Shown in pieces: positions 9,860 through 33,688 of a stretch of DNA of 33,688 nucleotides (within the stretch, counting starts at the first letter, position 1; each line of letters begins with the position of its first letter). The stretch comes from Paraglaciecola hydrolytica. Its GTDB lineage: Bacteria > Pseudomonadota > Gammaproteobacteria > Enterobacterales > Alteromonadaceae. The notes under the pieces were generated by a model that made no database searches, was not told where the DNA came from, and was given only the letters and a program-made list of their open reading frames with translations. The stretch spans positions 198,479-232,166 of the forward strand of contig NZ_LSNE01000005.1 in NCBI RefSeq assembly GCF_001565895.1. Direction: 5' to 3'. A program made the position numbers and the translations under genes.

Positions 9860-9888
9860 ATAGTATGTTGCAAAACATATGATGTTTA
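9860..9888 (-). promoter_or_regulatory. GntR-type operator upstream of the PhoD-like operon, with candidate promoter
   Basis: The perfect inverted repeat AAACAT-CAT-ATGTTT (minus strand, 9887-9873) lies 75 bp before the ATG at 9797. A candidate -10 TACTAT (9865-9860) with a 17-bp spacer places -35 TAAACA (9888-9883) on the operator itself. The element is identical to the sites in front of the large receptor gene and of the GntR gene. The operator is seen; the promoter boxes are inferred. Confidence 0.75.
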
Positions 9889-9916
9889 AATGTGTGGCAT
9901 TATTTCATCATCTGGC

Positions 9917-11593
9917 CTAATCACATGCAAATAGCTTTTCATTATCACGGCTAATTGTTTTAGAGGCACTCGGGAAGCCTGTTGATTTTTCTCGCAATTC
10001 TTGTTCACTCGGTACCATGATTGAGTAAAAACGGGGATCGTCTATGGTGGTGCTGCTGGCCGCATACAGTAATGGACTGATGCTTGGTCCTTGATGAAAG
10101 GTTTCCATATAGGGTATAGCGTCAGCAAGCCATAAGTAGCGCAACTCACAAGGTACAAAGGGCAGGGTACCTTGTTTTACTTGGGCATTAGTTCCATAGA
10201 TTGTTGTTACATCGGTGATGCGAGAATCAGCGGAAAAACTCCCGACAGGTAAATTGTCGGGATTAGTAAATTGCCCACTAGAGGTTTGCCAGTCAACAAA
10301 GGCTCTATCGATACGTACCGCCGCTCCGCAGCTATCTGCCGCGATTTTTTGCACGTCGAAGCGGCCGTTTGTGGCGCCCCAGGGTTGGATCATCACAGCC
10401 GCATTGCCATTTTTACACTTGATGTTATAGCCAAAAATGTCTGCGATCTTAGATATCTCTAAGGGAGCTTGCCCACCAGATGCACTCACTGCATCTGTCT
10501 CAATTCGTAAGGTAGCGCCACCACCAAGTGATTCAATGTTTTTGAAAAACACATTTTCGCCCACTCGAACTTGCACTGCGCCATAGCCACCATGCGCATT
10601 GATGACAGTGATGTCTTTTACTAAACCATTGCTTGCACCGGCCCATATTCCGTCGGTTTTACTTGGTACTAGATTAACCGAAGAGTGGACTGTGCCCTTA
10701 TCGATAACATAAACACCGCTGAGCATAAAATTTTCTACGTGTTTAACACTAAAGGGCACCAGTCTTGGCGGCTCTTCGTCAAGAATATACAAATCGTCAG
10801 AAAGGTCAGACATATCAATGGTGAACTGCTCTGTAGCAGAGCTTGACCGAATGCTGACGTTGCGAATGTAGGGACCTCCATCATAACCAAGGTGAAATAG
10901 CGGGCCATTATAAGTAAAGCGCTTAGGTTTAATGACTACCGCTGGCTCAACAATAATATGTACATTGGAAGCGAGTTTTATTTCACCGAGCACCCACTCA
11001 GGATCTGGCGATGCGGGCAGTGTTATGTTTCCACCTCCTTGAGCGTTGAGTTGATTAATGAGTGTTTGTAAATTGCTAGAATCATCGCCTGGCTCATTAA
11101 CTAAGGTCATTTGACGCTCAACAGGGATAGAAGATGAGGTGTCGTTGAAAAAATCGCTTTCAACTAAAAATTCAGGCAATGAAGCATCGACGCAATCGGG
11201 ATGTTCAATACCCGCTATGGCGCAAAAAGGTAAGGTACAAGTTGGATAATCAGTACCACCGTTTGCACAAACAGGTGCAGTGCAAGTTGGATAATCAGTG
11301 CCACCGTTTGCACATGCAGGTGCAGTGCAAGTTGGATAGTCAGTACCACCATTTGCACAAACAGGTGCAGTACAAGTTGGATAGTCAGTACCACCGTTTG
11401 CACACACAGGTGCAGTGCAAGTTGGGTAATCAGTACCTCCGTTTGCACATACAGGTGCAGTGCAGCTTGGGTAATCAGTACCACCGTTTGTACAAACGGC
11501 AGTTTCTTCTTGGTCTTCTCCCCCTCCACTACAAGCGGTTAAAAATAAAAACAGGGATAAAAGAATAGATCTGAGTAAGGTTTGTTTTATCAT
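9917..11593 (-). CDS. Beta-helix lipoprotein on a Cys-rich repeat stalk; possible GH82-like carrageenase
   Basis: 558 aa. Lipobox FLTACS (Cys21) indicates an anchored lipoprotein. Residues 34-123 are six copies of a 15-residue unit, consensus CANGGTDYPTCTAPV, followed by one degenerate copy, making a stalk with regularly paired cysteines. Residues about 170-500 read as a right-handed parallel beta-helix (NLQTLINQLNAQGGGNITLP, then successive short strands such as NGLVKDITVINAHGGYGAVQ). In the middle, TLRIETDAV supplies an E-x-D pair (Glu365, Asp367) with Gln341 24 residues before the Glu. From memory, iota-carrageenases of GH82 use a Glu-x-Asp pair with a Gln about 23 residues upstream, so a GH82-like enzyme is possible. 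Polysaccharide lyase or GH28-like folds are alternatives. It has its own upstream gap after a stem-loop and precedes the PhoD-like operon. Confidence 0.72.
   Translation of the reverse strand: MIKQTLLRSILLSLFLFLTACSGGGEDQEETAVCTNGGTDYPSCTAPVCANGGTDYPTCTAPVCANGGTDYPTCTAPVCANGGTDYPTCTAPACANGGTDYPTCTAPVCANGGTDYPTCTLPFCAIAGIEHPDCVDASLPEFLVESDFFNDTSSSIPVERQMTLVNEPGDDSSNLQTLINQLNAQGGGNITLPASPDPEWVLGEIKLASNVHIIVEPAVVIKPKRFTYNGPLFHLGYDGGPYIRNVSIRSSSATEQFTIDMSDLSDDLYILDEEPPRLVPFSVKHVENFMLSGVYVIDKGTVHSSVNLVPSKTDGIWAGASNGLVKDITVINAHGGYGAVQVRVGENVFFKNIESLGGGATLRIETDAVSASGGQAPLEISKIADIFGYNIKCKNGNAAVMIQPWGATNGRFDVQKIAADSCGAAVRIDRAFVDWQTSSGQFTNPDNLPVGSFSADSRITDVTTIYGTNAQVKQGTLPFVPCELRYLWLADAIPYMETFHQGPSISPLLYAASSTTIDDPRFYSIMVPSEQELREKSTGFPSASKTISRDNEKLFACD
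11235..11504. repeat. Six 45-bp tandem repeats encoding the Cys-rich stalk
   Basis: Six in-frame 45-bp units begin at 11235, 11280, 11325, 11370, 11415 and 11460. They differ at only a few positions each, the last being the most diverged. Each encodes one 15-residue C-x9-C stalk unit. The high DNA identity points to recent slippage or recombination, so copy number may vary between strains. Confidence 0.93.
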
Positions 11594-11680
11594 TTAAATT
11601 ATGCCTTTCATCATCTAGGCGATGATTTTAGTTTGTGTAAATTAACCAACGAGTTGGAAGGTAAATTTGTTGCAAGGTAA

Positions 11681-11705
11681 AAGAACGTAAAAAATCTACG
11701 TTCTT
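11681..11705 (-). terminator. Stem-loop after the DUF6445 gene
   Basis: 9-bp perfect arms AAGAACGTA/TACGTTCTT with a 7-nt loop, 47 nt downstream of the stop at 11752. On the minus strand the arm ends in TTCTTTTACC, a modest T-tract. It probably ends or attenuates the receptor operon before the beta-helix gene; the AT-rich stem makes this a weak terminator call. Confidence 0.5.
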
Positions 11706-11751
11706 AAATCGCAAACTTTTTTGTTAGTTGCTCAATATTGGTTATCGATAC

Positions 11752-12468
11752 TTATGCTTGTTTAAATTCGATAAAAAAATTGGCTGATAATCTGCCGGTT
11801 TTAGGGTCGTTATTGACATCATGTTTGGGATTATCAATGTAGGCAGAATGTAAAATAGTTGCGGGGTAAATTAATAAGCGGTTGGGTTTATAATCCACCT
11901 TATGGATCAGTTCAAAATGCTCATTACTCTCGGTAAAGTATTGCTGTTTTGGCTGGCCTGCATGATCAATAAAAGCTTGCGCCGATTGTAAATAGTGCTG
12001 CCGACGACCCTGAGTAATATTTTCATAACCTGTTGGTTTATGTCGATAAAACCCCGTTCCGCCAAAATCACCGTCGTTAAGATAGTGGATCATGGCAAAA
12101 TTGAATGTATCGTTATTGTCAAAATGCGGAATACACTGCAACAAGTCCATGTTTTGTGGTTGCTGGGTTATAAGTGAATAACTGCCATTTTTAGGAAACA
12201 AGCTTAGTGCTTTAGGTACTTGAAAAAAGTGATAGAACACGTCCAAGGAATAACGTAGTACTGCCATACCGTAGGCTTCTCCCACAGGAGCACGAACCCC
12301 AGGGTAATAAGCGCCAATCTTATTTTTATCGCTTGAATAGGCAATTGAGCATGCTTCTTTTTGCGCATCGCTATAATCCAACATGACATCATCCACCACA
12401 AACAATGGGGTTTGTTCGTGGCCTAAACGATAGGCTTTTTGTTGTAGTTTAGGATTGATTTCAAACAT
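11752..12468 (-). CDS. DUF6445 family protein, 2-oxoglutarate/Fe(II) oxygenase-like
   Basis: 238 aa, no signal peptide, so probably cytoplasmic. The sequence matches what I know of DUF6445 proteins, which look like prolyl-hydroxylase-type double-stranded beta-helix enzymes. It has the facial-triad candidates IPHFDN (His115, Asp117) and ILHSAY (His207), plus TGRLSANFF (Arg226) as the likely 2-oxoglutarate ligand. GDFGGTGFYRHK between them is a typical core strand region. It is 20 bp downstream of the secreted two-repeat protein and ends the receptor operon. Relatives are often linked with TonB-dependent receptors and flavin halogenases; here the partner is a carbohydrate locus. The reaction is unknown. 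Confidence 0.7.
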   Translation of the reverse strand: MFEINPKLQQKAYRLGHEQTPLFVVDDVMLDYSDAQKEACSIAYSSDKNKIGAYYPGVRAPVGEAYGMAVLRYSLDVFYHFFQVPKALSLFPKNGSYSLITQQPQNMDLLQCIPHFDNNDTFNFAMIHYLNDGDFGGTGFYRHKPTGYENITQGRRQHYLQSAQAFIDHAGQPKQQYFTESNEHFELIHKVDYKPNRLLIYPATILHSAYIDNPKHDVNNDPKTGRLSANFFIEFKQA

Positions 12469-12488
12469 AAAATTTTAACGCCACCATA

Positions 12489-13220
12489 CTATTGAGCTGC
12501 TTTTAAAATGAAATATTTACCATATTTTTCAACGATGGGAGTTGTTTTACCTGTTTCAGATAAATAGATAACCCAGCTATAGTTTCCTGGCGGAAAATCA
12601 TCGGTCATATTGGTTAAAGGCAAGCTCATATCTCCCGGTGTGGTAACCGGAAATTTCAACGCACCTAACTCTTGCTGATTGTCACTATTCAAAAGTTTAA
12701 GGTGTAAATCCCGCGCGGCAGTGATGTCAAAAATCACTCTTAAATTAACATCCTCTTTGCCAATAACCTGCTTGGGAAAATCAACCATCTTCACTTTATC
12801 TCTAGCGCTAAAATTTGCGCTCTCCACCAGTTTTGCTTGATTAAGTACACGTAATTCTTGATGAATGGTTTCACCCAACCTGTCATTCCAATCTTTACCT
12901 TTGGGGGTTAAATAGGCGTCTATGCGGTACTGACCGGGCTTTAAATTGTCTACCGGTATTTCAAAATGATATTTGCCAGATTTATTCACGCGCTTCATCG
13001 CACGTTTTACGGTTTGCCAACCATCCATATTTTGCACTGCAACGTGAAGGTCTCGCGTTTTAGACAGTTCGACTTCAATTTGGACCAATGGCACCTCTTC
13101 AAAACCGATACTCTTTTGCACACTAAACTCAACAATACTGTCGTTGTTTGCTTTAGCGTTTATGGCAGTAAACAACAACATTAAGCACACAAATTGAACA
13201 GCTAAAGAGCGGTATTTCAT
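12489..13220 (-). CDS. Secreted protein of two tandem Ig-like beta repeats, coupled to GH16
   Basis: 243 aa with a signal peptide ending INAKA. Two halves align by eye: repeat 1 (about 30-130) has IEVELSKTRDLHVAVQNMDG and LKPGQYRIDAYLTP; repeat 2 (about 140-243) has RVIFDITAARDLHLKLLNSD and FPPGNYSWVIYLSE. Each looks like an immunoglobulin or bacterial carbohydrate-associated beta domain. No catalytic motif is visible. Its ATG overlaps the stop codon of the GH16 gene (TAATG), and AGGAGG lies inside the last GH16 codons, so translation is coupled to that enzyme. A periplasmic or surface accessory role, such as glycan binding or scaffolding, is inferred from this coupling only. I do not recognise a named family. 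Confidence 0.72.
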   Translation of the reverse strand: MKYRSLAVQFVCLMLLFTAINAKANNDSIVEFSVQKSIGFEEVPLVQIEVELSKTRDLHVAVQNMDGWQTVKRAMKRVNKSGKYHFEIPVDNLKPGQYRIDAYLTPKGKDWNDRLGETIHQELRVLNQAKLVESANFSARDKVKMVDFPKQVIGKEDVNLRVIFDITAARDLHLKLLNSDNQQELGALKFPVTTPGDMSLPLTNMTDDFPPGNYSWVIYLSETGKTTPIVEKYGKYFILKAAQ

Positions 13221-14626
13221 TATTCCTCCTGCGGTATTTTACTAATAGCGATATCATCAATAAACAGGGTACTTGTACCTGCTGGTGCATCGGCCTGTTT
13301 GATGATAATTCGCATACGATCATTAAGTTTTGACGCTTGTGTTCTGACAAAGGGCAGGCTTACTTCTACCCATTGAGAAGGTGTGATGTTGCTTACATTA
13401 ATGGGTGATAAGACTAACCAGGGGTTTTCTAATATGATGTTTATTTTCTGGACTTGAGATTGTGGCTCTTTCCATAGTTTAAAGGTGAGTTGATAGTTGC
13501 CTTCATCTAAACGAATCGAACCTTCTGGCGAAAACGCCACGACCTCATTTTGGGCAAGTTCAGCGTTTTGCACAAAACGTAAACTTTTGCGGCCACTGGC
13601 AAATTTGTTTTCGTTAAAATCCGTGATGGCAAAGTGCTTGGCAGAGGCATTATCAAACCACCATTGCTTGGCATACAGATCCCGAGCTTCAGGCATTTGT
13701 CGCATTTCACTGATATATGGCCCTTCAAAGCCATAAAACGCAGGGGCGAGTAAGTTGCTGTCCGGCTTTTGCCATATGCGCACATAATCAATCTCAAAAT
13801 CCACTGGTAATTCTTCTTTACTGGGAATGCCATGCCAAGGAAATACTTCTGAATCGAACCATAATTCCAGTGGGTTGTTGAGTAACCAGCTATCGCCCAT
13901 TTCCGCTTGATTAACGGTATGTACTAATTCACCGTCTAAATACATTTTCAAACCATCTTTAAGCCATTCCACACCATAAACATGGAAAGCATCTGCGGTT
14001 CGGCCTGCCATTTTATGGGGATGTCGCCACACTTTATTTTGCTCTGCATGCCCTGGGCGCCAATCGTGAATAGAGGTGACAAAGGTACTTTCTGGATTGC
14101 GGCTGCCAGTTTTAACTCGGCCAATTAACTCAAATACATCTAATTCTTGTTGATAACCCGTGCCCCAAAATGCACCTGTCATGGCCGCATCCGGAATTTT
14201 GACCCGCACTTCCATATAGCCATATAAAAAGGTTTTTTTACTGATAATGGCGGCTGTGGTGATATTTTCGTAACTTGTTATTTCTTGTTTAGCAGGTGGT
14301 GTGCCGACAAATGCATAATCGGGTTGCCATTGTGTTGTCAGTTTCAACAGGCCGTCACTTAAGTTGACGTTATGCGGGGCAAACTGTGATGGTGCTCGAC
14401 CTTTCCACAGATAAAACTTTGCCTCTTTACCTTGCACAAACCATTTGAGCTCGTCCAGAGCAGTACCATTGAATTCATCACTGACTTCTGGATTTAACTG
14501 CCAGTTTTGGCTGTTTTTTGGATCTGATAATGGCAATATTTCTTTTGCTAACACTCCGCATGAGAGGCTCATGAGTAATAGAATATTTAGTGGTTTAAAT
14601 AACAAATTCATTTTGCAAACACTCAT
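13220..14626 (-). CDS. GH16 enzyme with C-terminal carbohydrate-binding-like domain, secreted
   Basis: 468 aa. An N-terminal signal peptide (LNILLLMSLSCGVLA) is followed by the GH16 domain (about 29-310): EVSDEFNG, WKGRAPSQF, YGYMEVRVKI, catalytic E-L-D-V-F-E at 161-166, IHDWRPG and DYVRIWQKP. Residues 310-468 form an extra beta-sandwich ending STLFIDDIAISKI, resembling CBM4/CBM22-type binding domains. The start could also be the ATG at 14611; neither has a clear Shine-Dalgarno sequence. It lies 15 bp after the kappa-carrageenase-like gene and overlaps the following gene by TAATG. It belongs to the same GH16 type as the genes at 3819 and 32130. Red-algal galactan is the expected substrate; the subfamily is not resolved by reading. 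Confidence 0.87.
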   Translation of the reverse strand: MSVCKMNLLFKPLNILLLMSLSCGVLAKEILPLSDPKNSQNWQLNPEVSDEFNGTALDELKWFVQGKEAKFYLWKGRAPSQFAPHNVNLSDGLLKLTTQWQPDYAFVGTPPAKQEITSYENITTAAIISKKTFLYGYMEVRVKIPDAAMTGAFWGTGYQQELDVFELIGRVKTGSRNPESTFVTSIHDWRPGHAEQNKVWRHPHKMAGRTADAFHVYGVEWLKDGLKMYLDGELVHTVNQAEMGDSWLLNNPLELWFDSEVFPWHGIPSKEELPVDFEIDYVRIWQKPDSNLLAPAFYGFEGPYISEMRQMPEARDLYAKQWWFDNASAKHFAITDFNENKFASGRKSLRFVQNAELAQNEVVAFSPEGSIRLDEGNYQLTFKLWKEPQSQVQKINIILENPWLVLSPINVSNITPSQWVEVSLPFVRTQASKLNDRMRIIIKQADAPAGTSTLFIDDIAISKIPQEE

Positions 14627-14641
14627 TTAATAGAGAAATAT

Positions 14642-15610
14642 TTATTGGCGCGGTTTGTAAACACGTACCCAATCCACTTGCATAGTGCTTGGAAAGCCCT
14701 CAGCCGTCGCTTTGCTCGGCACGGCACAACGTACAAATTCAGGAGGACAGTTGTTATAGCTAACATGGGGGAAACGCAAACCTAACGATAAGGTGACATG
14801 CATGGGTAGATGCCAATAAACGTTGGGTTTTTCGGCCACTTTTTTGCCATCTAAATACCAAGTGATTTTTTCTGGTGTAACTTGTGCACCGTAAACATGA
14901 AAATCATCTCTGGGATCAAAATCGCCATGTATTTTATTGCGGGTTAATTCAGGATGAGTATTTGGACGCTTCCAGATTTCTTTGCCATTTTCTATGACAC
15001 GAGTGTGCAGATTCATGTCCAGCACTTCTGGTCCTTCAAAGGTGTGATGAGCTTTATCCCATTCCGCTTGTTGAAGTTCAATAATGTCGACTTCAGAATA
15101 GGTAGGTTCACCTTCCTTAGTACCACGCAAACCTAATGCTTGTACTTCTTCAGTTAAGCTATATATCCAAAATGCCGGACTTGCAGCTGGGTAGGTGGGG
15201 ATACCCTTTAGTCGTGCTTCGTAATAGCCATAAACCTGATATTGGTGAGATCGCAAGATGCCAGAGGTGTAATACAGTTCAGTCTCCACTTTTTTACCAT
15301 GGCTTTTATAGGCGTGGCGTTCAGCAGTATGAGGTTTGTAGTTAATCTGGATGTTAAGATTGCCATCTTGTTGCCACGTATTGTCAGTCTCCCACGACCA
15401 CGGGCCCCAACTGCCAGGATCATTATCCCATTTCTCGCTATCAATTTGCGTGGTATTAAATTCATCTGACAGCGCCGCTACGTATTCCCAATCATCGGCA
15501 GATGATTGCAGCAAGGTTGGCTTAATTTGCGTGTTAGTTTGCTCGCTTGTGGATTCGCAAGCGCTAAGGCTTAACATACAAAAGGTGCTAAGTATTAAAT
15601 ATCGTTTCAT
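14642..15610 (-). CDS. Kappa-carrageenase-like GH16 lipoprotein
   Basis: 322 aa. Lipobox LSLSACES (Cys18) suggests membrane anchoring, unlike the secreted archetype. The catalytic signature E-V-D-I-I-E lies at 173-178. Many stretches match what I remember of the Pseudoalteromonas carrageenovora kappa-carrageenase: LYYTSG, YGYYEARLKG, SPAFWIYS, FDPRDDFHVYG, KITWYLDG, YWHLPMHVTLSLGLR and AEGFPSTMQVDWVRVY. This places it in the kappa-carrageenase branch of GH16 far more clearly than the other three GH16 genes here. Expected reaction: endo-hydrolysis of beta-1,4 bonds between 4-sulfated galactose and anhydrogalactose. A close specificity such as furcellaran or beta-carrageenan is possible. It is third in the receptor operon, after a stem-loop, with GGA upstream of the ATG. 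Confidence 0.85.
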   Translation of the reverse strand: MKRYLILSTFCMLSLSACESTSEQTNTQIKPTLLQSSADDWEYVAALSDEFNTTQIDSEKWDNDPGSWGPWSWETDNTWQQDGNLNIQINYKPHTAERHAYKSHGKKVETELYYTSGILRSHQYQVYGYYEARLKGIPTYPAASPAFWIYSLTEEVQALGLRGTKEGEPTYSEVDIIELQQAEWDKAHHTFEGPEVLDMNLHTRVIENGKEIWKRPNTHPELTRNKIHGDFDPRDDFHVYGAQVTPEKITWYLDGKKVAEKPNVYWHLPMHVTLSLGLRFPHVSYNNCPPEFVRCAVPSKATAEGFPSTMQVDWVRVYKPRQ

Positions 15611-15624
15611 GGTTTTTCCAATGC

Positions 15625-15649
15625 ATAGTCACCCAGCAAGGGTGACTAT
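15625..15649 (-). other. Intercistronic stem-loop between the surface lipoprotein and GH16 genes
   Basis: 10-bp perfect arms ATAGTCACCC/GGGTGACTAT with a 5-nt loop in the 77-bp gap, ending 14 bp before the GH16 ATG. No T-run follows, so it is more likely an RNA-processing or stability element than a terminator. Confidence 0.65.
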
Positions 15650-15687
15650 TTCTAATTATTGATTAACTGGATGTTTGATTATCTAGC

Positions 15688-17448: not shown

Positions 17449-17475
17449 CTTACATCTCCAAAATTTTTTAGCTTC

Positions 17476-17495
17476 GGCTGGTGTCAACACCAGCC
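17476..17495 (-). other. Intercistronic stem-loop between receptor and surface lipoprotein genes
   Basis: 8-bp GC-rich perfect arms GGCTGGTG/CACCAGCC with a 4-nt loop, 24 nt after the receptor stop codon. What follows on the minus strand is GAAGCTAAAAAATTTT rather than an immediate T-run, so partial termination or 3'-end protection of the receptor message is more likely than full termination. Confidence 0.65.
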
Positions 17496-17519
17496 AATTA
17501 GTGTGCGTTTTGCAATTAA

Positions 17520-21185: not shown

Positions 21186-21487
21186 ATAGTGTCTCCACGA
21201 TCCAGTGTTACCGTTTAAATAACAGGTTCGGTTTAAAGTTACTTAAATAACTTTCTAATTATTAAACGTTATGTAGCCATTCTTAAGTCAACTAAGTTAA
21301 CAAAACAATGGCACTCACGTGTTTATGTGTTTTGTAAAGCGTCTTCTCTATGTTTAAAAATATTCTACTAACAGTGACTTGGCTGAGTAAGGTCAGCAAT
21401 TCAAAATTGACAAGGAGTAAACTTATCAATAACGGCAAAAATCACTTCAACACCTGATTACGTTACATAATTATGATGTTATGATTT

Positions 21488-21516
21488 ATTTAAACATATG
21501 ATGTTTGTGATCGCAA
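21488..21516 (-). promoter_or_regulatory. Promoter and GntR-type operator of the receptor operon
   Basis: On the minus strand TTGCGA (21516-21511), a 17-bp spacer and TTAAAT (21493-21488) form a plausible sigma70 promoter. The perfect repeat AAACAT-CAT-ATGTTT (21506-21492) fills the spacer and touches the -10. Binding there should block RNA polymerase. A start near 21480 would give a leader of about 295 nt. Confidence 0.75.
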
Positions 21517-24729: not shown

Positions 24730-24741
24730 TGTGTTTTACCT

Positions 24742-26028: not shown

Positions 26029-26103
26029 AAACCTAACTCAACAAACAGACGCCTGTTAATTAACAGTCTCTTGAGCAATGAGGGCCGATGCCAGCCCAAC
26101 CAA

Positions 26104-28230
26104 TTAAAAGTCATAATTAAATTGAACACCAAAGCTAGAGCCGATATTCGGGAAGCGTCCAAGTGACACCACGCTATTTCCTAGCAGTATTAAATCTTCT
26201 ACTTGGCGTTCGTCAGTTATGTTGTCTGCAAAGGCAGTTACCGACCAATCTTGCGCTTCAAAAGTCGCTCTTAGATTAATAATCGTTTGTTTGGAAGACT
26301 GAATATCGGCAATATCAAAGCTGAATATTCTAGGACCTGTGTGGTTCACATCGGCGCGTAGGATTAAATCCAACTCAGATGACATGGCATATTCATATTC
26401 GGCCACCAAATTGAGGTTGTAATCAGCCACGTGGGGTAACGAATAACCAATTAAGTCAGGGCGTTCAGCAAAGGCTTTAATGTCCGAGTCAATTATTCCG
26501 CCATTCGCCATCAGGGTTAAATTATCACTAGCCTGTACAGAAAGCTCAAACTCAATTCCTTGGGTACTGACATCATCAACCGAGATGTTTTCTAAGGTAA
26601 AGGTATCGCCATTAAAACGGGTTATCTGGGCATCTTCTTGGTCAATCCTAAACAGGGCGAAGTTAAAGGTACCGTTGCCATTTAATACGCTAGTTTTAAA
26701 GCCTACTTCAAAGCTATCAGAAATTTCTTTATCAAAGGTGCGGCTAATATCAGGGTGAGGTTCGTTAAACCCGCCGCTACGAAAACCGCGTGAATAACCA
26801 CTATAGATAAGAGTGTTGTTATTCATTTGATAGGCGACTGAAAATTTGGGCTGTAACTCAGAAAAGGTTTTTTGCTCAAAAGTCTCTTCAACAAAGCGCG
26901 AGTCAAAAGATTCTCTGTCGTCGGTGTCATAACGAACTGCCGCCGTCACTTCGATTTGCTCAGTTAAATCATAGTTTAACTGAGTTGATAAAGCCCAAGC
27001 GCTGCTGCTGTTATCATCCAATATACTAAATACAATTAAACTCTCATCAAAGTCAGAGCGATCCATCGGCTGATTGCCAACCATATCGTCATAGTTGTGG
27101 TATTCGCTATCCCGCGATCGTTCTTGCATAAAGGCAGCTACAGCCCAGCGCAAGCGAGAATCGTCGTTAGACTTTAGGCGTGCTTCAAAAGTGGTTGACT
27201 CTACTTTCAAAATATTTTCCTGCGCACCAGCGTAATAGAAACCGTCAAAGTCACTTGGTTGATTAGAAAAATCGGCATCAGAGAAACCGCTTTGATCTGA
27301 TTCGCTATAACCTGCGACTAACTCAAGGGTTGAGGCCTCAAATTCGTGAGAGAATCGTGCGCTAAATTCGCTAAGATCGCGAGTGTCTAAGCCTGGCACG
27401 TTATGTTCAACTTGTAGCGAGAAATCTTCAACGGTATCAAAATCGACCGCTTGGTAATATCCAATGCCTGATTCTGTATTGGTCAAACGTGCATTTAAAT
27501 CAAGGATAGAATCATCTGAAACATCTATGCTCAACTTGCCAAATACCGAGTTTTCTTCATGAAAATCAACAGTTTTATTTAAAAATGTATTATCAAGTTG
27601 TCCCGCGTAATCACGTCGATACGCTCCAACTCTAAAGTAGGCTTTATCTTCAACCACAGCACCAGACGCGACACCAGATAAACGCAGATCGTTACCACTG
27701 GCAAAAGACGTACTGACTCGCGCTTCAAAATCGTTAGTAGGTCTGCGAGTGGTAATATTAACCGCGCCACCTATGGCACCGCGTCCATAAAGTGCACCTT
27801 GAGCGCCGCGCAGTATTTCAATTCTTTCAATATCGAATAACTGTTGATTCATAAATTCCAAATCAGAGGCGGTAATGCCATCCACCACAAAGGCTAAAGG
27901 CGCATCACCTACCTGAGGGGTGATTAAACCGCGGATTTGGATTCGAGCTAAGCCCGGACGAAAATTGTCTAATTGACTTAGATTGGGCGTCAGATCAGCT
28001 ACATCGCGAAAACTCTTAATGCCTGCACGTTCAATTTGCTTGGCGTTAAACGAGGTGATGGACTCTGGGATCTCTTGCAGGCTCTCAACTCGTCCACGTG
28101 AGGTGACGACTATTTTTTCGAAGGGTTCTTCGAGTGATTCTTCGGCGGCGACAAGCTGCGAATTTGCAACAAACAGTAAAGTGCTTGGCACAATCAAGGC
28201 TGTCGTGATTTTATTTAGACGCATAGACAT
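26104..28230 (-). CDS. TonB-dependent receptor of the hydantoinase/DUF917 cluster
   Basis: The frame opens at 28314, but the likely start is the ATG at 28230 (MSMRLNKITTALIVPSTLLF; signal peptide ending LVAAEE), giving 708 aa; the ATG at 28245 is also possible. The TonB box is EKIVVTSRG, the plug is clear (FRDVADLTPNLSQ, ARIQIRGL, IERIEILRGAQGALYGRGAI) and the barrel ends FGVQFNYDF. The size fits siderophore/vitamin-class receptors, in contrast to the 1221-aa receptor of the polysaccharide locus. It is the first gene of an operon with the NCS1 permease and the two enzymes, and is divergent from an Lrp-type regulator. The substrate is unknown; a scarce nitrogen ring compound or a carrier of one is inferred. 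Confidence 0.88.
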   Translation of the reverse strand: MSMRLNKITTALIVPSTLLFVANSQLVAAEESLEEPFEKIVVTSRGRVESLQEIPESITSFNAKQIERAGIKSFRDVADLTPNLSQLDNFRPGLARIQIRGLITPQVGDAPLAFVVDGITASDLEFMNQQLFDIERIEILRGAQGALYGRGAIGGAVNITTRRPTNDFEARVSTSFASGNDLRLSGVASGAVVEDKAYFRVGAYRRDYAGQLDNTFLNKTVDFHEENSVFGKLSIDVSDDSILDLNARLTNTESGIGYYQAVDFDTVEDFSLQVEHNVPGLDTRDLSEFSARFSHEFEASTLELVAGYSESDQSGFSDADFSNQPSDFDGFYYAGAQENILKVESTTFEARLKSNDDSRLRWAVAAFMQERSRDSEYHNYDDMVGNQPMDRSDFDESLIVFSILDDNSSSAWALSTQLNYDLTEQIEVTAAVRYDTDDRESFDSRFVEETFEQKTFSELQPKFSVAYQMNNNTLIYSGYSRGFRSGGFNEPHPDISRTFDKEISDSFEVGFKTSVLNGNGTFNFALFRIDQEDAQITRFNGDTFTLENISVDDVSTQGIEFELSVQASDNLTLMANGGIIDSDIKAFAERPDLIGYSLPHVADYNLNLVAEYEYAMSSELDLILRADVNHTGPRIFSFDIADIQSSKQTIINLRATFEAQDWSVTAFADNITDERQVEDLILLGNSVVSLGRFPNIGSSFGVQFNYDF

Positions 28231-28267
28231 TGTGTTGATTCCCATATTATATGTTGAATTAGCATTT

Positions 28268-28305
28268 TTCGTTTTATTTTGAAGCTGTAGTATATTACCA
28301 ACGAA
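28268..28305. promoter_or_regulatory. Inverted repeat in the receptor/Lrp divergent promoter region
   Basis: Arms TTCGTT (28268-28273) and AACGAA (28300-28305), extendable to 9 of 10 matching bases, flank an AT-rich centre between the divergent receptor and regulator starts. This is a plausible binding region for the adjacent Lrp-type protein; not a proven operator. Confidence 0.35.
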
Positions 28306-28403
28306 TAAAAACATTCTGTTGAAGATACCTCTTGAAAACGGATAATCTTTACTTCCGAACTGCCCTCACAAAATAATCGTTTTTCAACTTAAATGGCCAT
28401 TAA

Positions 28404-28904
28404 ATGAGCATTAAAAAAAACATCAAACTTGATCAGATCAACAAGAAAATAATAACGATAGTGCATACGCAGGCTGATATCTCTAATCAAGAACTAAGCG
28501 AACGTGTGGGTTTATCAAACAGTGCCTGTTTTCAACGCACTAAAGCGCTCAAAGAGGCAGGCTATTTTGTTGGTTTTAATACAGATCTTGATTTAAATAG
28601 AATTGTAAAAAATGTCTTGGCTTATGTTGAATTCACCCTTGAAGCAAATAATCCAAAGGCAAGAAAAACCTTTGAGAATGCCATAAAAGCTATCCCAGAA
28701 TTTATGGACTGCTTACGGATTACCGGCGATGTGGATTATATTTGCTTTACCTGTTGCTCTGACACCCAAGCCCTCAATGAACTTTGCGATGCAGTGAATG
28801 GCAATCCTGATTTGGGCATACAAAAAGTTAAAACACGCATTATATTAGAACGCGCCAAGTGGTACTTGGGCTATCCGCTACAAAAGCTGGAATGGTTGAA
28901 GTGA
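28404..28904 (+). CDS. Lrp/AsnC family regulator, divergent from the second receptor
   Basis: 166 aa, the normal size. The N-terminal helix-turn-helix is at about 26-50 (ISNQELSERVGLSNSACFQR), and the C-terminal ligand-sensing RAM domain at about 68-150 (VLAYVEFTLEANN, MDCLRITGDVDYICFT). It is transcribed away from the receptor-permease-hydantoinase operon with a 173-bp shared upstream region, so it is the obvious candidate to control that operon in response to an amino acid. The ATG has only a weak ribosome binding site. It ends 20 bp from a second, convergent Lrp gene; the two share the family fold but are not close copies. Confidence 0.9.
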   Translation: MSIKKNIKLDQINKKIITIVHTQADISNQELSERVGLSNSACFQRTKALKEAGYFVGFNTDLDLNRIVKNVLAYVEFTLEANNPKARKTFENAIKAIPEFMDCLRITGDVDYICFTCCSDTQALNELCDAVNGNPDLGIQKVKTRIILERAKWYLGYPLQKLEWLK

Positions 28905-28924
28905 GGCAAGTTGGCAGTGCTGGA

Positions 28925-29389
28925 CTAAGTCGAGCTAAGTAAAATGCTGGTTTCGCTGTTAAGTACCCCGGGGATCATTCTTACTACCCTCAAAACTTGA
29001 TCAAACTCACCCAAGCTTAATGTTTGTATCTCTGCAATGAGATCCCACGCACCATTTGTTGTGTGCAGTTTAAACAACTCAGGAATACCTCGCAATTTTT
29101 CAATAACTTGCGAAGTTGATTTACCAACAACCTCAATCATCATGATTGCCCTTATTGCGCCTTCCTCCACATTTTCATGGGCACGAATGGTAAAGCCCAA
29201 AATTGCTCCGCTTGAAAGCAGCCGATCTAGCCTATTTTGAATGGTGCCTCGGGAGACATGTAAAATCTCAGACAGTTTTGAAATTGATGCCCTGCCATCC
29301 TTACGCAATATGCTAACCAACTCTCGGTCTAATTCGTCGTATAGATAAGGGGCTTTTGTTTGTTTGGTCACAGAAGTTAACCCTGTCAT
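28925..29389 (-). CDS. Lrp/AsnC family regulator, divergent from ocd-ctlX
   Basis: The frame can start at a TTG (29410), but the ATG at 29389 has GAGA upstream and is preferred (154 aa). The helix-turn-helix is SISKLSEILHVSRGTIQNRL, and the RAM domain includes IRAIMMIEVVG, LHTTNGAWDLIAEIQT and VLNSETSILLSS. Divergent from the ocd-ctlX operon with a 134-bp gap, it probably regulates citrulline/ornithine catabolism, as Lrp-type regulators often do for adjacent amino-acid genes. The ligand, perhaps ornithine, citrulline or proline, is inferred. Confidence 0.88.
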   Translation of the reverse strand: MTGLTSVTKQTKAPYLYDELDRELVSILRKDGRASISKLSEILHVSRGTIQNRLDRLLSSGAILGFTIRAHENVEEGAIRAIMMIEVVGKSTSQVIEKLRGIPELFKLHTTNGAWDLIAEIQTLSLGEFDQVLRVVRMIPGVLNSETSILLSST

Positions 29390-29403
29390 TTTGCTATCTC
29401 TGT

Positions 29404-29450
29404 ATGTCAAAGTGATAAATAATAGTGCATATATTACAGTATATTGACAT
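29404..29450. promoter_or_regulatory. Inverted repeat between the Lrp gene and ocd
   Basis: 7-bp perfect arms ATGTCAA (29404-29410) and TTGACAT (29444-29450) are 40 bp apart centre to centre, about four helical turns, in an AT-rich divergent promoter region. The right arm includes TTGACA, a consensus -35 for ocd, though no well-spaced -10 is obvious. A plausible site for the adjacent Lrp-type protein. Confidence 0.4.
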
Positions 29451-29523
29451 TTTAACTAACATGTTAAGGTTATAAACTTTTTCCATCGTCAAATTTAAGT
29501 TTAGCCTTGCGAGTTCTTAACTA

Positions 29524-30597
29524 ATGAATAGTTGTAATAAATTGAAATCCCCTAATGTTCCGTTTTTAGGCGTAAGTCATTTGCTTGATTTACTGGCAGA
29601 TGTGGGCGTAGAAAACTTTCTGCTTGGTCTAGCTGAATATATTCAACAAGATTTTATGCGCTGGGATGAATTTGACAAATCTCCGCGTTACGCCTCACAT
29701 TCAGAAGAAGGTGTTATTGAGTTAATGCCAACCAGTGACGGTAATAATTTTAGTTTTAAGTACGTTAATGGTCATCCTAAAAATACCCTAAAAGGACTTC
29801 AAACGGTTACCGCTTTTGGTGTGCTGGCTGATGTTGACTCAGGCTATCCCCTGTTAATATCTGAGATGACTGTTTTAACTGCCTTGAGAACAGCTGCTAC
29901 CTCTGCCTTAGTGGCAAAATACCTCGCTCCTGCAAACTCAAGTGTGTTGGCTTTGATTGGCAATGGTGCGCAGTCGGAATTCCAAGCATTAGCGTTTAAG
30001 GCGCTATTGGGTATCACCCAAGTGAAGTTATTCGACATTGATAGATCTGCTTCCATCAAGTGCTACGAAAACCTTAAGGATAAGGGACTAGATGTCGAAA
30101 TTTGCCTTTCTGCTCAGGAAGCAATCGAAGGGGCACATATCATCACAACCTGCACTGCAGACAAATGCAATGCGACCATATTAACTGATGAAATGGTAGC
30201 TAATACAGTCCATATTAATGCGATCGGTGGGGATTGTCCGGGCAAAACTGAATTAGACAAAAACTTACTGCTCAGGGGCGATGTATTTGTCGAATATGAG
30301 CCGCAAACGCGAATCGAAGGCGATATACAACAACTTGATGCAAGCAGCTTTGTAACAGAAATTCATCGGGTGATAAGCGGATTAGCACCTGGTCGCACTG
30401 TTGCTCAGCAACTAACCATTTTTGACGGTGTGGGTTTTGCTGTTGAGGATTTCTCTGCTTTGCGTTTTGTCAGAGACTTGATGCAGCAATCTCCACATCA
30501 ACAAAAACTTGATTTACTGGCCAATCCCAAAGATCCACGTAATTTATTTGGCTTATTAGCAAATAGTCAAAAAACATCACTTAGGCAGGCAAGTTAA
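29524..30597 (+). CDS. ocd: Ornithine cyclodeaminase family protein
   Basis: 357 aa, the expected length for ornithine cyclodeaminase/mu-crystallin proteins. Seen: FKYVNGHPKN (Lys79, substrate-side lysine region), ALRTAATSALVAKYLA, the NAD-binding glycine loop LALIGNGAQSEFQ (144-154), and AIGGDCPGKTEL (233-244) with the conserved Asp237. Expected reaction: L-ornithine to L-proline plus ammonia using NAD in the cytoplasm. Its stop overlaps the ATG of the citrulline hydrolase gene (TAATG), giving a two-step route citrulline to ornithine to proline. Related cyclodeaminases and alanine-dehydrogenase-like proteins share these motifs; the neighbour favours ornithine. Confidence 0.88.
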   Translation: MNSCNKLKSPNVPFLGVSHLLDLLADVGVENFLLGLAEYIQQDFMRWDEFDKSPRYASHSEEGVIELMPTSDGNNFSFKYVNGHPKNTLKGLQTVTAFGVLADVDSGYPLLISEMTVLTALRTAATSALVAKYLAPANSSVLALIGNGAQSEFQALAFKALLGITQVKLFDIDRSASIKCYENLKDKGLDVEICLSAQEAIEGAHIITTCTADKCNATILTDEMVANTVHINAIGGDCPGKTELDKNLLLRGDVFVEYEPQTRIEGDIQQLDASSFVTEIHRVISGLAPGRTVAQQLTIFDGVGFAVEDFSALRFVRDLMQQSPHQQKLDLLANPKDPRNLFGLLANSQKTSLRQAS

Positions 30598-31520
30598 TGG
30601 CAATTCGTAATCCTCAAGCACCTAGTGCAGTAGTAATGGTAAGGCCTCATCATTTTTGCCCCAATCCACAAACACAGGCTGACAACTCATTTCAATCGCC
30701 ATTGCCACAAAACTCAGAAACACTGCACGCTTTAGCCTATCGGCAGGCCTCTGATGTTGCTGCCAAATTAACAGACTGTGGTATTCAGGTTCACATTTTC
30801 GAAGATGAAACCCGTGATACTCCTGATTCAGTATTTCCCAATAATTGGTTTTCTACCCATTCGGGTGGACATGTTGCCATATACCCTATGTATGCCCTGA
30901 ATCGACGAACTGAGAAGAGAGCCGATGTTATCGATATGCTGAAACGTTGTTATCGGGTCCAGGACGTGGTGGATTATTCGGGTTTAGAAGCCGATGACAT
31001 TTTTCTAGAGGGGACAGGTGCAATGGTGCTGGACCATATTGACCGGGTTGCCTATGCAGTGCAGTCAAATCGCACAAATCCGCTGGCACTTGAACGATTC
31101 TGTTCACATTTTAATTATGAGCCAATGTTATTTGAGGCCTTTGATAATAATGCTAAAGCGGTTTATCACACCAACGTTCTGATGTGCATTGGTACTGACT
31201 TTGTAATGATTGGACTGGATATGATCGATAATCAAAAACGTCGTGATGAAATAATCCAACGATTTGTAGAGTCCGGGCGAGAGGTGATTACCTTGAGTCA
31301 CCAACAAATTGCTCGCTTTTGCGGCAATGCCATAGAACTACAAGGCAAAAACGGGCGAATATTAGCTCTCTCTTCAACGGCCTATGCCGCTTTGGAGCCA
31401 GAACAGCGCCTAATACTCGAAAAAAGCGTAACCCTGTTACCATTAGAGGTGTCAGTAATAGAGTCGGCAGGTGGTTCGGTAAGATGTATGTTGGCTGGTA
31501 TCCATCTATCAGCTAGGTAA
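30597..31520 (+). CDS. ctlX: Citrulline hydrolase CtlX-like (amidinotransferase/arginine deiminase superfamily)
   Basis: 307 aa. The N-terminus MVRPHHFCPNPQTQADNSFQ matches the CtlX pattern I know. Guanidine-modifying-enzyme landmarks follow: DSVFPNNWFSTH, DDIFLEGTGAMV (Glu138), AVYHTNVLM (His191) and a C-terminal nucleophile candidate Cys297 in GGSVRCMLAGIHL. CtlX proteins hydrolyse citrulline to ornithine, CO2 and ammonia; dimethylarginine-type hydrolases are an alternative. Cotranslated with ocd, which would remove the ornithine formed. No clear terminator follows. Confidence 0.85.
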   Translation: MAIRNPQAPSAVVMVRPHHFCPNPQTQADNSFQSPLPQNSETLHALAYRQASDVAAKLTDCGIQVHIFEDETRDTPDSVFPNNWFSTHSGGHVAIYPMYALNRRTEKRADVIDMLKRCYRVQDVVDYSGLEADDIFLEGTGAMVLDHIDRVAYAVQSNRTNPLALERFCSHFNYEPMLFEAFDNNAKAVYHTNVLMCIGTDFVMIGLDMIDNQKRRDEIIQRFVESGREVITLSHQQIARFCGNAIELQGKNGRILALSSTAYAALEPEQRLILEKSVTLLPLEVSVIESAGGSVRCMLAGIHLSAR

Positions 31521-32129
31521 TAAAGAGCGTTTAGGCATGGCTGATTCTGATTTTTCGATGATCCTTAAGTGAATTAATTACACAATTAGAACTAGACTAA
31601 AACTAGCTAAAATTGCCAGGTAAAAGGCGGATAGGGGCTGGCACTACAAAGGAACTCAATCCATAAATCATCAATAACCAGCTTGCCCTCCGCTACTAGT
31701 TATTCTTTGTGAATTCGCTCAACCAAATGCACCACAGATATCGAATAGTTAGCTAATTTATACGATCTCAATTGAGGTTACGGGAGTTAATCAGAAGTTC
31801 CTGCCTGCTCAGGAATGATGTGTAATAGCTTGTATATCCTCACCGTCCGCAATATGCTATTTGTACTCATTCATTGGGAAGCTCGCCAACAACCGCAAAT
31901 GGCACACGGCCGTCTGTAAGGTTTGGTCAAGCTCTGTATATAGAAAATTTCAGATTGAATTCAGACTAATTCACATAAACCATAGCCAGTTTAACAACTG
32001 GCTGATATGCTCTTTACGACAAAGTCGCTCGGTAATTAGACCGACAGTCTCCCTTGGTAATCACACTACTACAGACAATAATAGCTTCGCTGAATTCTTC
32101 CGTCCCACAGTGTAAATCGTGTTGTGTGT
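31521..32129. other. Intergenic region with no convincing gene
   Basis: About 609 bases between convergent ctlX and the fourth GH16 gene. It contains an 8-bp perfect stem-loop AGCCAGTT/AACTGGCT with a 4-nt loop (31984-32003) and no T-run. An 84-codon plus-strand frame at 31861-32115 lacks a ribosome binding site and any recognisable motif. It marks the boundary where the nitrogen block meets the polysaccharide regulon. Confidence 0.5.
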
Positions 32130-33179
32130 TTATTGTTTTTCTGGTGTTTGCCACACCCGTACATATTCAATTTCAAAATCGACGATACCGTCATCTTTTT
32201 CATCTTCAGGACTGTTTAACTCTAAATCTGCTTTCGACTCAGGGTAGCCACGCCAAGGAAAGGTTTCTTGATCAAGCCAGATATGCATTGCTTTATCAAT
32301 TACGTAGCCTTTTTTAAAGCCACGCTTTTTGGCCCAGGCATCTATTGTGTCTCGTGATGCTTCGCTAAAAAGCTTGCCATCGATGAAGTAGCGTATGCCG
32401 GTTTCAGTCCATTCAAAACCATAGGTATGGAATTTTTCGGCTACTCTAAAGCCTAGATCTTTGGTTTCAGTGTAAGTTACATTTTTACCGTTTTCCTGAC
32501 CCAATTTTGGATCCCAGTCATGCAAGGTCCACCACAGATCTCTATCTCTATGTTCTTGGCCTGGGATACGATGACTGCCAAAGTGTTCAAACATATCGAG
32601 CTCTAATTCGGTGTCGTTTCGCTGTCCGTTTTTGCTTTCATGTCTTGTCATCCAAAACGCGCTCGATATTTCAGCATCTGCTGCTTTGGCGTGAATTTCC
32701 ATATAACCGTATTTGAATATTTTACGGTTAATTAATGCGGCGGTCGTGATGTTTTCGTATTTACCGGCAATTTTGTCAGGCCCCCAAGGATCGCCAGCTT
32801 GAGTACTAAAAGGAAAGTCGGGCTCCCAGCGTGTTTCTAACATTAACTTGCCATCTTCTAAACGGTAATTTCTGCCAGAAAATTGCGAAGGGGCGCGACC
32901 TATCCATACTTCGCGATCCGGAAAATCGGGATCTTTGTAGACGGGCTTACCATTTTCAAATTTGCCCACCACGTACCATCTATCCTCGTCGAGAATACTA
33001 TCTTCAAATTCATCGCTGACCTCTTCATTTAGAACCCAGCCACCTGTGTTATTAGGATCCGAAAGAGGCAGTACGTTGGCACTGACAGAGTGTGCTGCCG
33101 AACTCAATATCAGAGCAGCAACAAGAGGGCGCCAATTAATATGCGATTGAGGCCACTTGGTGGGATATTTAAAATACAT
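32130..33179 (-). CDS. GH16 family endo-galactanase, secreted, under GntR operator control
   Basis: The frame opens with a TTG at 33191, but the ATG at 33179 has GGAG 6 nt upstream and starts a signal peptide ending HSVSA, giving 349 aa. GH16 landmarks: EVSDEFED, IGRAPSQFSGRNYRLE, YGYMEIHAKA, catalytic E-L-D-M-F-E at 193-198 of this form, TLHDWDP and a closing YVRVWQTP. It is closely related to the GH16 at 3819-4802 (shared LETRWEPDFPF, KDLGFRVA, DQETFPW, KDDGIVD) and so is probably a duplicate with a shifted specificity. Located 11 kb from the rest of the locus, it is tied to it by the operator 110 bp upstream of the ATG. Agar-, porphyran- or furcellaran-type substrates are all possible. Confidence 0.88.
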   Translation of the reverse strand: MYFKYPTKWPQSHINWRPLVAALILSSAAHSVSANVLPLSDPNNTGGWVLNEEVSDEFEDSILDEDRWYVVGKFENGKPVYKDPDFPDREVWIGRAPSQFSGRNYRLEDGKLMLETRWEPDFPFSTQAGDPWGPDKIAGKYENITTAALINRKIFKYGYMEIHAKAADAEISSAFWMTRHESKNGQRNDTELELDMFEHFGSHRIPGQEHRDRDLWWTLHDWDPKLGQENGKNVTYTETKDLGFRVAEKFHTYGFEWTETGIRYFIDGKLFSEASRDTIDAWAKKRGFKKGYVIDKAMHIWLDQETFPWRGYPESKADLELNSPEDEKDDGIVDFEIEYVRVWQTPEKQ

Positions 33180-33284
33180 GTCATTCTCCAATATAGAAAT
33201 TTAGTCCCTCCCGAGCTAGGTCTCTAAAAGACTACAGCGGTTGTTGTTGGTAGTCAGAGCAGGGAATGTTAAAACATCATTTAT

Positions 33285-33313
33285 AGTTAAACATATGATG
33301 TATTGGTGGGCAA
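33285..33313 (-). promoter_or_regulatory. Promoter and GntR-type operator of the fourth GH16 gene
   Basis: On the minus strand TTGCCC (33313-33308), a 17-bp spacer and TTAACT (33290-33285) form a candidate promoter. The operator ATACAT-CAT-ATGTTT (33303-33289) fills the spacer, one mismatch from the perfect form. A second half-like site AAACATCAT lies at 33272-33280 on the plus strand. Confidence 0.7.
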
Positions 33314-33428
33314 TTAAATTTGTCGCTCTTTTGTTAAGCTGTATTTAATTATTAACTCTACCAAAGGGACGTAATTTAAAGGGCAGGTTTACTCATTGGG
33401 CTTTTACTTGCTTCTACCTTATTAAACT

Positions 33429-33460
33429 AAGGCCAGTCGTTTTTACTACTGGCCTTTTTT
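33429..33460 (+). terminator. Rho-independent terminator upstream of the GntR gene
   Basis: 9-bp arms AAGGCCAGT/ACTGGCCTT with a 10-nt loop, followed by a run of six T on the plus strand (33455-33460). It lies 123 bp before the GntR ATG, and no plus-strand gene ends nearby. It could end a small RNA, attenuate a long GntR leader or insulate the regulator. Confidence 0.85.
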
Positions 33461-33547
33461 GTAGTGGGCAATATCTATTTCTAATTGCGTTATTAAGCCC
33501 AAAAAGGTTTGAATTAATTTAAATATGTCTGAAATGTTAAATAAATC

Positions 33548-33576
33548 TTGTGAATGTAAACATCATATGTTTATAT
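33548..33576 (+). promoter_or_regulatory. Promoter and autoregulatory operator of the GntR gene
   Basis: TTGTGA (33548-33553), a 17-bp spacer and TTATAT (33571-33576) form a candidate promoter, with the perfect operator AAACAT-CAT-ATGTTT (33558-33572) in the spacer. The expected start point falls at or next to the ATG at 33584, which suggests a very short or absent leader, unless transcription begins further upstream. Confidence 0.72.
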
Positions 33577-33583
33577 ATCTGCT

Positions 33584-33688
33584 ATGAGTGAAATGACGTA
33601 TTACGATTTAAAAAGCGCTGGCACTATTTCGCCAAGCATGTCGGTCCAAGTTGCAAGAGAACTGGGTCGTAGAATTGTGGCGGGGGAA
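33584..33688 (+). CDS. GntR (FadR-subfamily) regulator, N-terminus only, truncated by window edge
   Basis: 35 codons are visible before the window ends. The reading SMSVQVARELGRRIVAGE is the start of the winged-helix domain of GntR/FadR-subfamily repressors, which control sugar-acid and galactonate-type pathways in many proteobacteria. No Shine-Dalgarno sequence precedes the ATG; a second in-frame ATG is three codons further. A perfect copy of the 15-bp operator lies 12 bp upstream, so it is probably autoregulated and the controller of the polysaccharide genes. Effector domain, length and effector cannot be seen. Confidence 0.8.
   Translation, partial: MSEMTYYDLKSAGTISPSMSVQVARELGRRIVAGE

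Follow-up and report, generated by a model that had tools for sequence, protein, structure and literature searches.

A predicted GntR regulon for carrageenan catabolism in Paraglaciecola hydrolytica and its 15-bp operator

Introduction

Carrageenan loci of marine bacteria are known to be co-induced. In Colwellia echini, the genes of a carrageenan polysaccharide utilization locus (PUL) of approximately 86 kb, the CAR PUL, are jointly regulated on kappa-carrageenan, and the available part of that report names no regulator (PMC6952198). In Pseudoalteromonas U2A, 24 of the 30 CarPUL genes rise on iota-carrageenan, and the accessible text calls the mechanism of induction unknown (PMC6923384). No experimentally assigned regulator of a carrageenan locus was found in the literature that could be searched, RegPrecise and subscription papers lying outside the search. 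Here, a stretch of 33,688 nt from Paraglaciecola hydrolytica (the window; this term denotes the whole stretch analysed) was studied, in which the 15-mer AAACATCATATGTTT precedes polysaccharide genes and a gene for a GntR-type regulator. This element was not found in the literature in the forms searched. It very probably marks a local, autoregulated GntR regulon for carrageenan catabolism, with AAACAT-N3-ATGTTT as the predicted operator and repression by promoter occlusion.

Results

Operator sites and their confinement to one locus

A search of the window for the 15-mer gave the following features.

9873-9887, (-) strand: operator 1, exact match, 75 bp upstream of the open reading frame (ORF) 7446-9797; heads the PhoD-like/GH167/GH16/lactonase run
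21492-21506, (-) strand: operator 2, exact match, 306 bp upstream of the TonB-dependent receptor ORF; TTGCGA at 21511-21516 in promoter register
33289-33303, (-) strand: operator 3, one arm mismatch (ATACAT...), upstream of a GH16 gene; TTGCCC at 33308-33313 in promoter register
33548-33553, (+) strand: -35-like TTGTGA of the GntR1 promoter, read directly, in the register common to other sites
33558-33572, (+) strand: operator 4, exact match, between the -35-like and -10-like boxes of GntR1, 11 bp before the ATG (33584)

The positions given in the initial annotation of this DNA, three perfect copies and one with a single mismatch at 33289-33303, were reproduced exactly. With at most one mismatch allowed, four sites were found against 0.02 expected from dinucleotide shuffles, and none of 100 shuffles reached four, in line with the claim that the element is not expected by chance in the window. 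The claimed orientation relative to the downstream gene was indeed identical at all four sites. A site does lie just before the GntR ATG, but the spacing is 11 bp and not 12 bp. The GH16 gene with its own site, described as distant, was confirmed to have one; however, this gene (32130-33191) begins about 100 bp from the site and adjoins the GntR gene. The 15-mer itself is real but is better described as AAACAT-N3-ATGTTT, a palindrome in which CAT is the favoured spacer: across the sites compared, the arms were constant and palindromic and the spacer was variable.

The whole genome (5,221,450 bases in 20 contigs) was then scanned. The exact 15-mer occurred five times in these 5.22 Mb, and all five occurrences fell within a 47-kb locus, C5:187661-234576, so that the perfect matches were confined to the galactan locus (5/5), as the initial annotation had expected. 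Two of these sites, at C5:187661 and C5:234562, lie just beyond the window. The locus therefore contains five perfect sites and one near-perfect site (33289). At the level of sequence, the regulon is real and larger than the window. Matches with one or two mismatches numbered 31 in the genome, one of them being the 33289 site. Of the 30 outside the cluster, 24 could be assigned a location, which was within an ORF for 19 and between ORFs for 5; they were rejected as additional regulon members because 19 of the 24 lay inside ORFs. An Rfam scan of the window at gathering scores gave no match.

Co-occurrence of the GntR protein and the motif

Two GntR proteins are encoded in the locus: GntR1, whose gene follows operator 4, and GntR2, at the end of a run of dauABCD-like genes. 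With GntR2 as the query (E<=1e-50), a GntR protein was detected in 21 of 196 genomes of the family, and the exact motif, searched in the same 196, was present in 23, including all 21 of the GntR genomes. Among the 175 genomes lacking the protein, only two (G098 and G101) contained the motif, with one match each, both inside ORFs. The same relation was observed within the genus. Of its 22 genomes (P. hydrolytica included), the seven with a close GntR protein (E<1e-100) were exactly the seven with the motif; in seven others, the GntR proteins were all distant ones (E about 1e-31 to 1e-36). When the spacer was left free (AAACATNNNATGTTT), 3 to 12 sites were found in each of 21 GntR-bearing relatives, compared with 0 to 2 for the reversed control.

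Genes preceded by the operator in relatives

The distribution of sites was determined in 43 stretches, namely the window, its two own flanks and 40 stretches of relatives picked around GntR or motif hits, with gene names assigned by blastp to the P. hydrolytica locus. With up to one arm mismatch allowed, 115 sites were counted in these stretches, 111 of them outside ORFs. Of the 80 sites with exact arms, 78 were outside ORFs, and one of the two inside was close to where an MR/MLE gene was called to begin. The genes with a start no more than 300 bp from a site, in either direction, were those for GntR (24), sulfatases (16), glycoside hydrolases (GH) of family GH16 (14) and GH127-like type (9), TonB-dependent receptors (9), MR/MLE enzymes (8), major facilitator superfamily (MFS) transporters (8), GH167-like enzymes (5) and dauA-like products (4), together with 18 unidentified genes and others in smaller numbers.

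Conservation upstream of orthologs, also anticipated in the initial annotation, was observed: every one of the six P. hydrolytica sites has a counterpart in another genome, where a homologous gene is preceded by a site of its own. The homologues of the GH16 gene behind the imperfect operator 3 in G202 and G009 (72% identical) had a site as well. Among 14 further places in GntR genomes, 11 preceded homologues of regulon genes, four of these homologues being GH16 genes 65-78% identical to those of P. hydrolytica. Isolated operator copies were located before GH16 or GH167-like genes (L094:1501, L096:1501, L250:2497, L254:2536, L255:2453 and L258:2519), as would be expected for a regulon acting in trans.

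Promoter architecture and a putative leaderless start

The position of the operator relative to promoter elements was examined at 51 exact-arm sites followed within 400 bp by one gene only; 26 divergent sites and one other were excluded. TTG occurred exactly 10 bp upstream of the operator at 31 of the 51 sites, while each of 27 other offsets was found at three sites at most. With GntR genes excluded, the figure for the 10-bp offset was 27 of 41. An A/T-rich, -10-like string starts at the last T of the operator. In P. hydrolytica, five of the six sites are in this register (TTGCGA, TTGTGA, TTGCAT, TTGTAA and TTGCCC). This location of the operator inside a sigma70-like promoter, at a fixed register, implies that repression would occur by blocking RNA polymerase.

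The CAT spacer was read along transcription at 35 sites and reversed at 2 (p=1e-8), or 36 versus 1 when the site at 33558 was assigned to GntR1. A heterodimer of the two paralogues was considered as the cause and was not supported because single-copy genomes were biased as well (CAT 11, reverse 0). The flanking promoter register accounts for the spacer orientation better than a heterodimer does.

At 38 loci drawn from the public-genome scan described below, the site is located at -11 from the GntR start. In 21 of these, TTG is found at -36 to -34 from the ATG, and in 35, a pyrimidine is at -1. Motifs resembling a Shine-Dalgarno sequence were found in 3 of 41 loci with a close site (-9 to -11), compared with 8 of 15 loci whose site is more remote and 19 of 31 dauB/C/D-like genes. 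The scarcity of such motifs, together with the TTG and pyrimidine positions, suggests that in many relatives the repressor mRNA may be leaderless and start at the ATG.

Spread of the regulator and its site across classes

Public genomes were scanned with an alignment of 31 GntR proteins (A1), and retention of the best 80 of 139 candidates gave 78 loci; a few genomes contributed two loci, and some overlap with the genome sets used above. Represented were Alteromonadales, Colwelliaceae, Cellvibrionales, Marinomonas, Vibrio penaeicida, many Alphaproteobacteria and SAR324. In the 60 bp preceding the GntR start, the arms were exact in 40 loci and had one mismatch in 16 and two in 12; in 10 loci, no site at these levels was found. 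The palindrome with at most one arm mismatch was thus present at 56 of the 78 loci, 38 of them at exactly -11, and the autoregulation proposed in the initial annotation gained support from this recurrence of the 11-bp spacing across classes (38/78). Random 60-bp windows of the same loci contained such a palindrome in 28 of 7,491 cases, a count that includes true sites of other operons. The GntR loci with a site reach 65% GC.

Homologues of catabolic genes were frequent over the 78 loci (blastp, E<=1e-10): dauB in 36, dauC in 33, MFS in 29, dauA and dauD in 28 each, and GH127 in 20. In the alphaproteobacterial loci L195 and L226, the GntR gene is followed by genes for a sugar-binding protein, an ABC ATPase and a permease (PF13407, PF00005 and PF02653); the sugar-binding protein was also confirmed in the SAR324 locus L218, and dauA- or dauB-like genes follow in L195, L226 and L218. 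No homologue of the window carrageenases was detected within 6 kb on either side in the loci of Alphaproteobacteria and SAR324 (L195, L198, L200, L218, L226 and others), which points to scavenging of anhydrogalactose released by other organisms. The common denominator of the GntR loci would appear to be anhydrogalactose/galactonate catabolism, and the effector would accordingly be likely to be a sugar acid of that path.

The regulators GntR1 and GntR2

GntR2 consists of an N-terminal GntR winged helix-turn-helix domain (PF00392, E=4e-13) and a C-terminal FCD domain (PF07729, E=8e-25) according to Pfam. The C-terminal piece of GntR1 likewise matched FCD (PF07729, E=2e-19). Its N-terminal 35 residues resemble the GntR2 head by eye and gave no Pfam hit because the piece is short. 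The closest solved relative of the GntR alignment, by profile comparison only, was 7c7e (E=5e-42), the structure of the Escherichia coli galactonate repressor DgoR according to the part of PMC12288454 available. In NCBIfam, 19 models matched the GntR proteins, none of them above its cutoff. Residues D160, H164 and H208 were invariant in all 31 aligned GntR proteins (31/31) and were aligned with Asp and His residues of 7c7e. These residues may have a metal role, as in other members of the subfamily.

The GntR1-type and GntR2-type proteins of Paraglaciecola formed separate, well supported clades in a tree that did not include the P. hydrolytica GntR1. Where the P. hydrolytica site before GntR2 is degraded, the GntR2 orthologues in G006, G009 and G015 have sites with one mismatch. 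The initial annotation had taken the GntR1 protein as the natural cognate regulator. A GntR protein in this role is supported; its uniqueness is not, since the second paralogue, at the end of the dau run, is an equal candidate.

Gene content of the locus and the substrate

The genes of the window that lie behind operators 1 to 4 are as follows.

2585-3700, (-) strand: 7-bladed lactonase (Pfam), operator 1 run
3819-4895, (-) strand: GH16 (Pfam), operator 1 run
4989-7421, (-) strand: GH167-like, without a Pfam hit; matches the solved GH167 9whd (E=1e-164) and also 6ptm
7446-9797, (-) strand: PhoD-like phosphatase (Pfam), first gene after operator 1
9917-11593, (-) strand: iota-carrageenase-like; PDB 3lmw, iota-carrageenase (E=2.6e-28)
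11752-12468, (-) strand: DUF6445 (Pfam), receptor run
12489-13220, (-) strand: 243-aa protein, receptor run
13220-14626, (-) strand: GH16 (Pfam), receptor run
14642-15610, (-) strand: kappa-carrageenase-like GH16 (Pfam); PDB 1dyp, kappa-carrageenase (E=5e-61)
15688-17490, (-) strand: Big_2 protein (Pfam), receptor run
17520-21185, (-) strand: TonB-dependent receptor (Pfam), heads the receptor run 9917-21185 under operator 2
32130-33191, (-) strand: GH16 under operator 3 (Pfam); PDB 9ijc (E=2e-48)
33584-33688, (+) strand: start of the GntR1 gene, which runs past the window end; FCD domain in the C-terminal piece

Judged by spacing and strand, the genes at 2585-9797 probably form one operon under operator 1, and the receptor run is likewise likely to be transcribed over 9917-21185. 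Two GH16 proteins other than the kappa-carrageenase-like one matched 9ijc, an unnamed GH16, in the PDB comparison, which among the GH16 proteins covered these two and the kappa-carrageenase-like one. The S1 sulfatase encoded after GntR1 matched the exo-4S-kappa-carrageenan sulfatase 6prm (E=5e-215).

Of the outside sites, that in the flank L031 is 61 bp before a GH16 gene whose run also includes two S1 sulfatases, an FG-GAP/ASPIC protein, a GH127-like protein, which matched GH127 structures, and an SGL-like protein. The site in the other flank, L032, is 22 bp before an aldehyde dehydrogenase gene heading a dauABCD-like (3,6-anhydro-D-galactose) run. This gene is followed by genes for an MR/MLE enzyme, a 2-keto-3-deoxygalactonokinase (DGOK), a KDPGal-type aldolase, a sugar MFS transporter and GntR2. 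In the part of PMC6262041 available, genes of these kinds are called dauA-D and GntR.

Carrageenase-like genes, a carrageenan sulfatase-like gene and a Dau-type pathway thus occur together, which is the make-up of a carrageenan PUL. In the neighbouring stretch L035, which contains an agarase-like gene (6xj9, E=1.5e-98 in the PDB comparison), no operator with zero or one arm mismatch was found. Considering the carrageenase, GH167 and sulfatase matches and this agarase-bearing neighbour without a site, the regulon is, on the evidence of homology, carrageenan-directed. The polysaccharide or galactan regulon of the initial annotation was therefore supported and its substrate narrowed to carrageenan.

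Several other features of the region were recorded. The iota-carrageenase-like ORF contains, near its N-terminus, tandem 15-residue repeats of the CTAPVCANGGTDYPT type. Inside the carrageenan locus, the window positions 22067-31520 are occupied by an amino-acid/hydantoin-type block without an operator, with genes for an S-Me-THD-like protein, hydantoinase A, a purine/cytosine-type permease, a second TonB-dependent receptor, two Lrp/AsnC regulators, an ornithine cyclodeaminase and a DDAH-like protein. Beside the regulon, L031:824-8888 also lacks an operator and includes genes for an SSF transporter and an AraC regulator. Its other genes resemble by eye what we take to be a reductase, a ferredoxin and a cytochrome P450. 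This run possibly serves methylated galactose.

Discussion

According to the proposed mechanism, a GntR repressor that belongs to the FadR/FCD subfamily and is a distant relative of DgoR would bind AAACAT-N3-ATGTTT as a dimer. Because the operator lies between -35 and -10 at a fixed register, the bound repressor would block RNA polymerase. At least six transcription units in the 47-kb locus would be controlled in this way: the TonB receptor and carrageenases; the PhoD-like and GH167 genes; a GH16; GntR1 and the sulfatase; GH16, sulfatases and GH127; and dauABCD, MFS and GntR2. Upon carrageenan degradation, D-galactonate or a sugar acid derived from 3,6-anhydro-D-galactose (3,6-anhydro-D-galactonate or 2-keto-3-deoxy-D-galactonate) would bind the FCD domain and release the repressor, and all units would be induced together. 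Autorepression would set the repressor level, and in many relatives the repressor gene would be transcribed without a leader from its ATG.

Several observations weigh against this scheme. Only unidentified genes follow at three of the 14 further places located in GntR genomes, and one exact-arm site in G202 precedes what is presumably a ribosomal protein gene. The site of GntR2 in P. hydrolytica (TAACATCCTATGATT, L032:9647-9661, 11 bp from the ATG) is degraded, with two arm mismatches. Since the two paralogues appear to have very similar reading heads, the operator is not assignable to one of them. In ten of the 78 GntR loci, the 60 bp before the annotated start contain no site with up to two arm mismatches; of these, eight have an exact-arm site elsewhere in the locus and two have none. 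Between divergent genes, the spacer showed no preferred orientation with respect to the nearer gene (9 versus 8). The agreement between protein and motif over the 196 genomes was counted without regard to shared ancestry. Finally, the available part of PMC4494728 gives TKGT-N3-ACMA as the operator consensus of the FadR subfamily, with exceptions listed, NanR and BioR. The arms found here, ACAT-N3-ATGT, stand at the consensus position without the GT-N3-AC boxes, and the operator therefore lacks the usual subfamily feature.

A different regulator encoded in the locus might instead read the palindrome, for example the AraC-type protein whose gene (L031:8016-8885) adjoins one site, that of the outside GH16, at a distance of about 0.3 kb on the upstream side. 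This is most improbable: AraC homologues were found in 25 of the 196 genomes, 15 of which had the motif, and AraC was missing from 8 of the 23 genomes with the motif, whereas the GntR protein matched in 21 of 21. AraC as the cognate regulator was rejected on this distribution; moreover, the site stands directly before the GntR start across classes. Nor is the element at all likely to be a promoter module kept only for its -35/-10 architecture and without a repressor. The fixed register between the two boxes and the spacer that follows transcription before single downstream genes (35 versus 2, or 36 versus 1) would suit such a module, but it is the spacer that varies, with the palindromic arms staying constant, and exact copies are absent elsewhere in the genome and in all but 2 of the 175 GntR-less genomes.

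The scheme of repression is also challenged by the PhoD site (operator 1), which has no -35 register, and by 20 of the 51 sites overall that lack TTG at the fixed offset. The GntR protein might act as an activator, either generally or at such sites alongside repression at others. This is unlikely, considering that the promoter-like frame around 31 of the 51 sites should leave no room for RNA polymerase once the protein is bound and that the nearest characterised relative, DgoR, represses from a position overlapping its promoter in the part of PMC12288454 available. A division of work between the paralogues has a better, though still minority, chance, and it would refine rather than replace control by a GntR repressor: GntR1 and GntR2 would read the same operator and answer different sugar acids, of the anhydrogalactonate and galactonate branches. 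The separate clades described above for Paraglaciecola and the two copies in several other genera are consistent with this, and the anhydrogalactose and galactose branches converge at 2-keto-3-deoxygalactonate in the portion of PMC6923384 seen. On the other hand, many single-copy genomes have the same kinds of targets.

Taken more broadly, the repressor, the non-canonical operator and the cassette TTGNNN-N4-operator-AWAT may constitute a portable 3,6-anhydro-D-galactose switch. In Alphaproteobacteria and SAR324, it would control a scavenging operon with an ABC sugar importer and dauA/dauB-like genes; in macroalga-degrading Gammaproteobacteria, copies of the cassette would have been placed before a whole carrageenan degradation regulon, with the repressor transcribed leaderless from the cassette. 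We regard the chances for and against this proposal as even. The candidate regulator, the 15-bp operator and the effector class make the question of carrageenan induction directly testable, and the operator can be used to find scattered carrageenan genes.

Local regulons of GntR/FadR proteins are of a known kind; the present one is set apart by its unusual operator and by the conservation of its promoter-operator cassette in several classes. Like the present GntR proteins, DgoR has the GntR and FCD architecture; it is an autoregulated repressor over its promoter, as predicted here, and serves a galactonate-type catabolic operon. In contrast, its IR1 contains TTGT-AGT-ACAA in the available part of PMC12288454, compared with ACAT-N3-ATGT here, and the present GntR would control a multi-operon polysaccharide locus. 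In the carrageenan PUL of P. carrageenovora 9T, a gene annotated as 'Galactonate operon transcriptional repressor' lies beside dauABCD; this GntR appears there as an annotation only, and the words 'motif' and 'palindrom' are absent from the text as available (PMC6262041). In Zobellia galactanivorans, scattered carrageenan genes are co-induced, catabolic steps are shared with the present locus, and a legend mentions a GntR-like factor, but this organism belongs to Bacteroidota, the work is an RNA-seq study, and its available passages contain no operator (PMC5698469). Pseudoalteromonas FUC4, a strain of the U2A study (PMC6923384), has the same GntR and seven exact-arm sites within 37 kb holding dauA- and GntR-like genes. 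C. echini (G082) has the same GntR and 11 exact-arm sites, all within 89 kb of one contig, a stretch that, from its genes, is probably the CAR PUL. The word GntR is absent from both of these reports as far as their text was available (PMC6923384 and PMC6952198).

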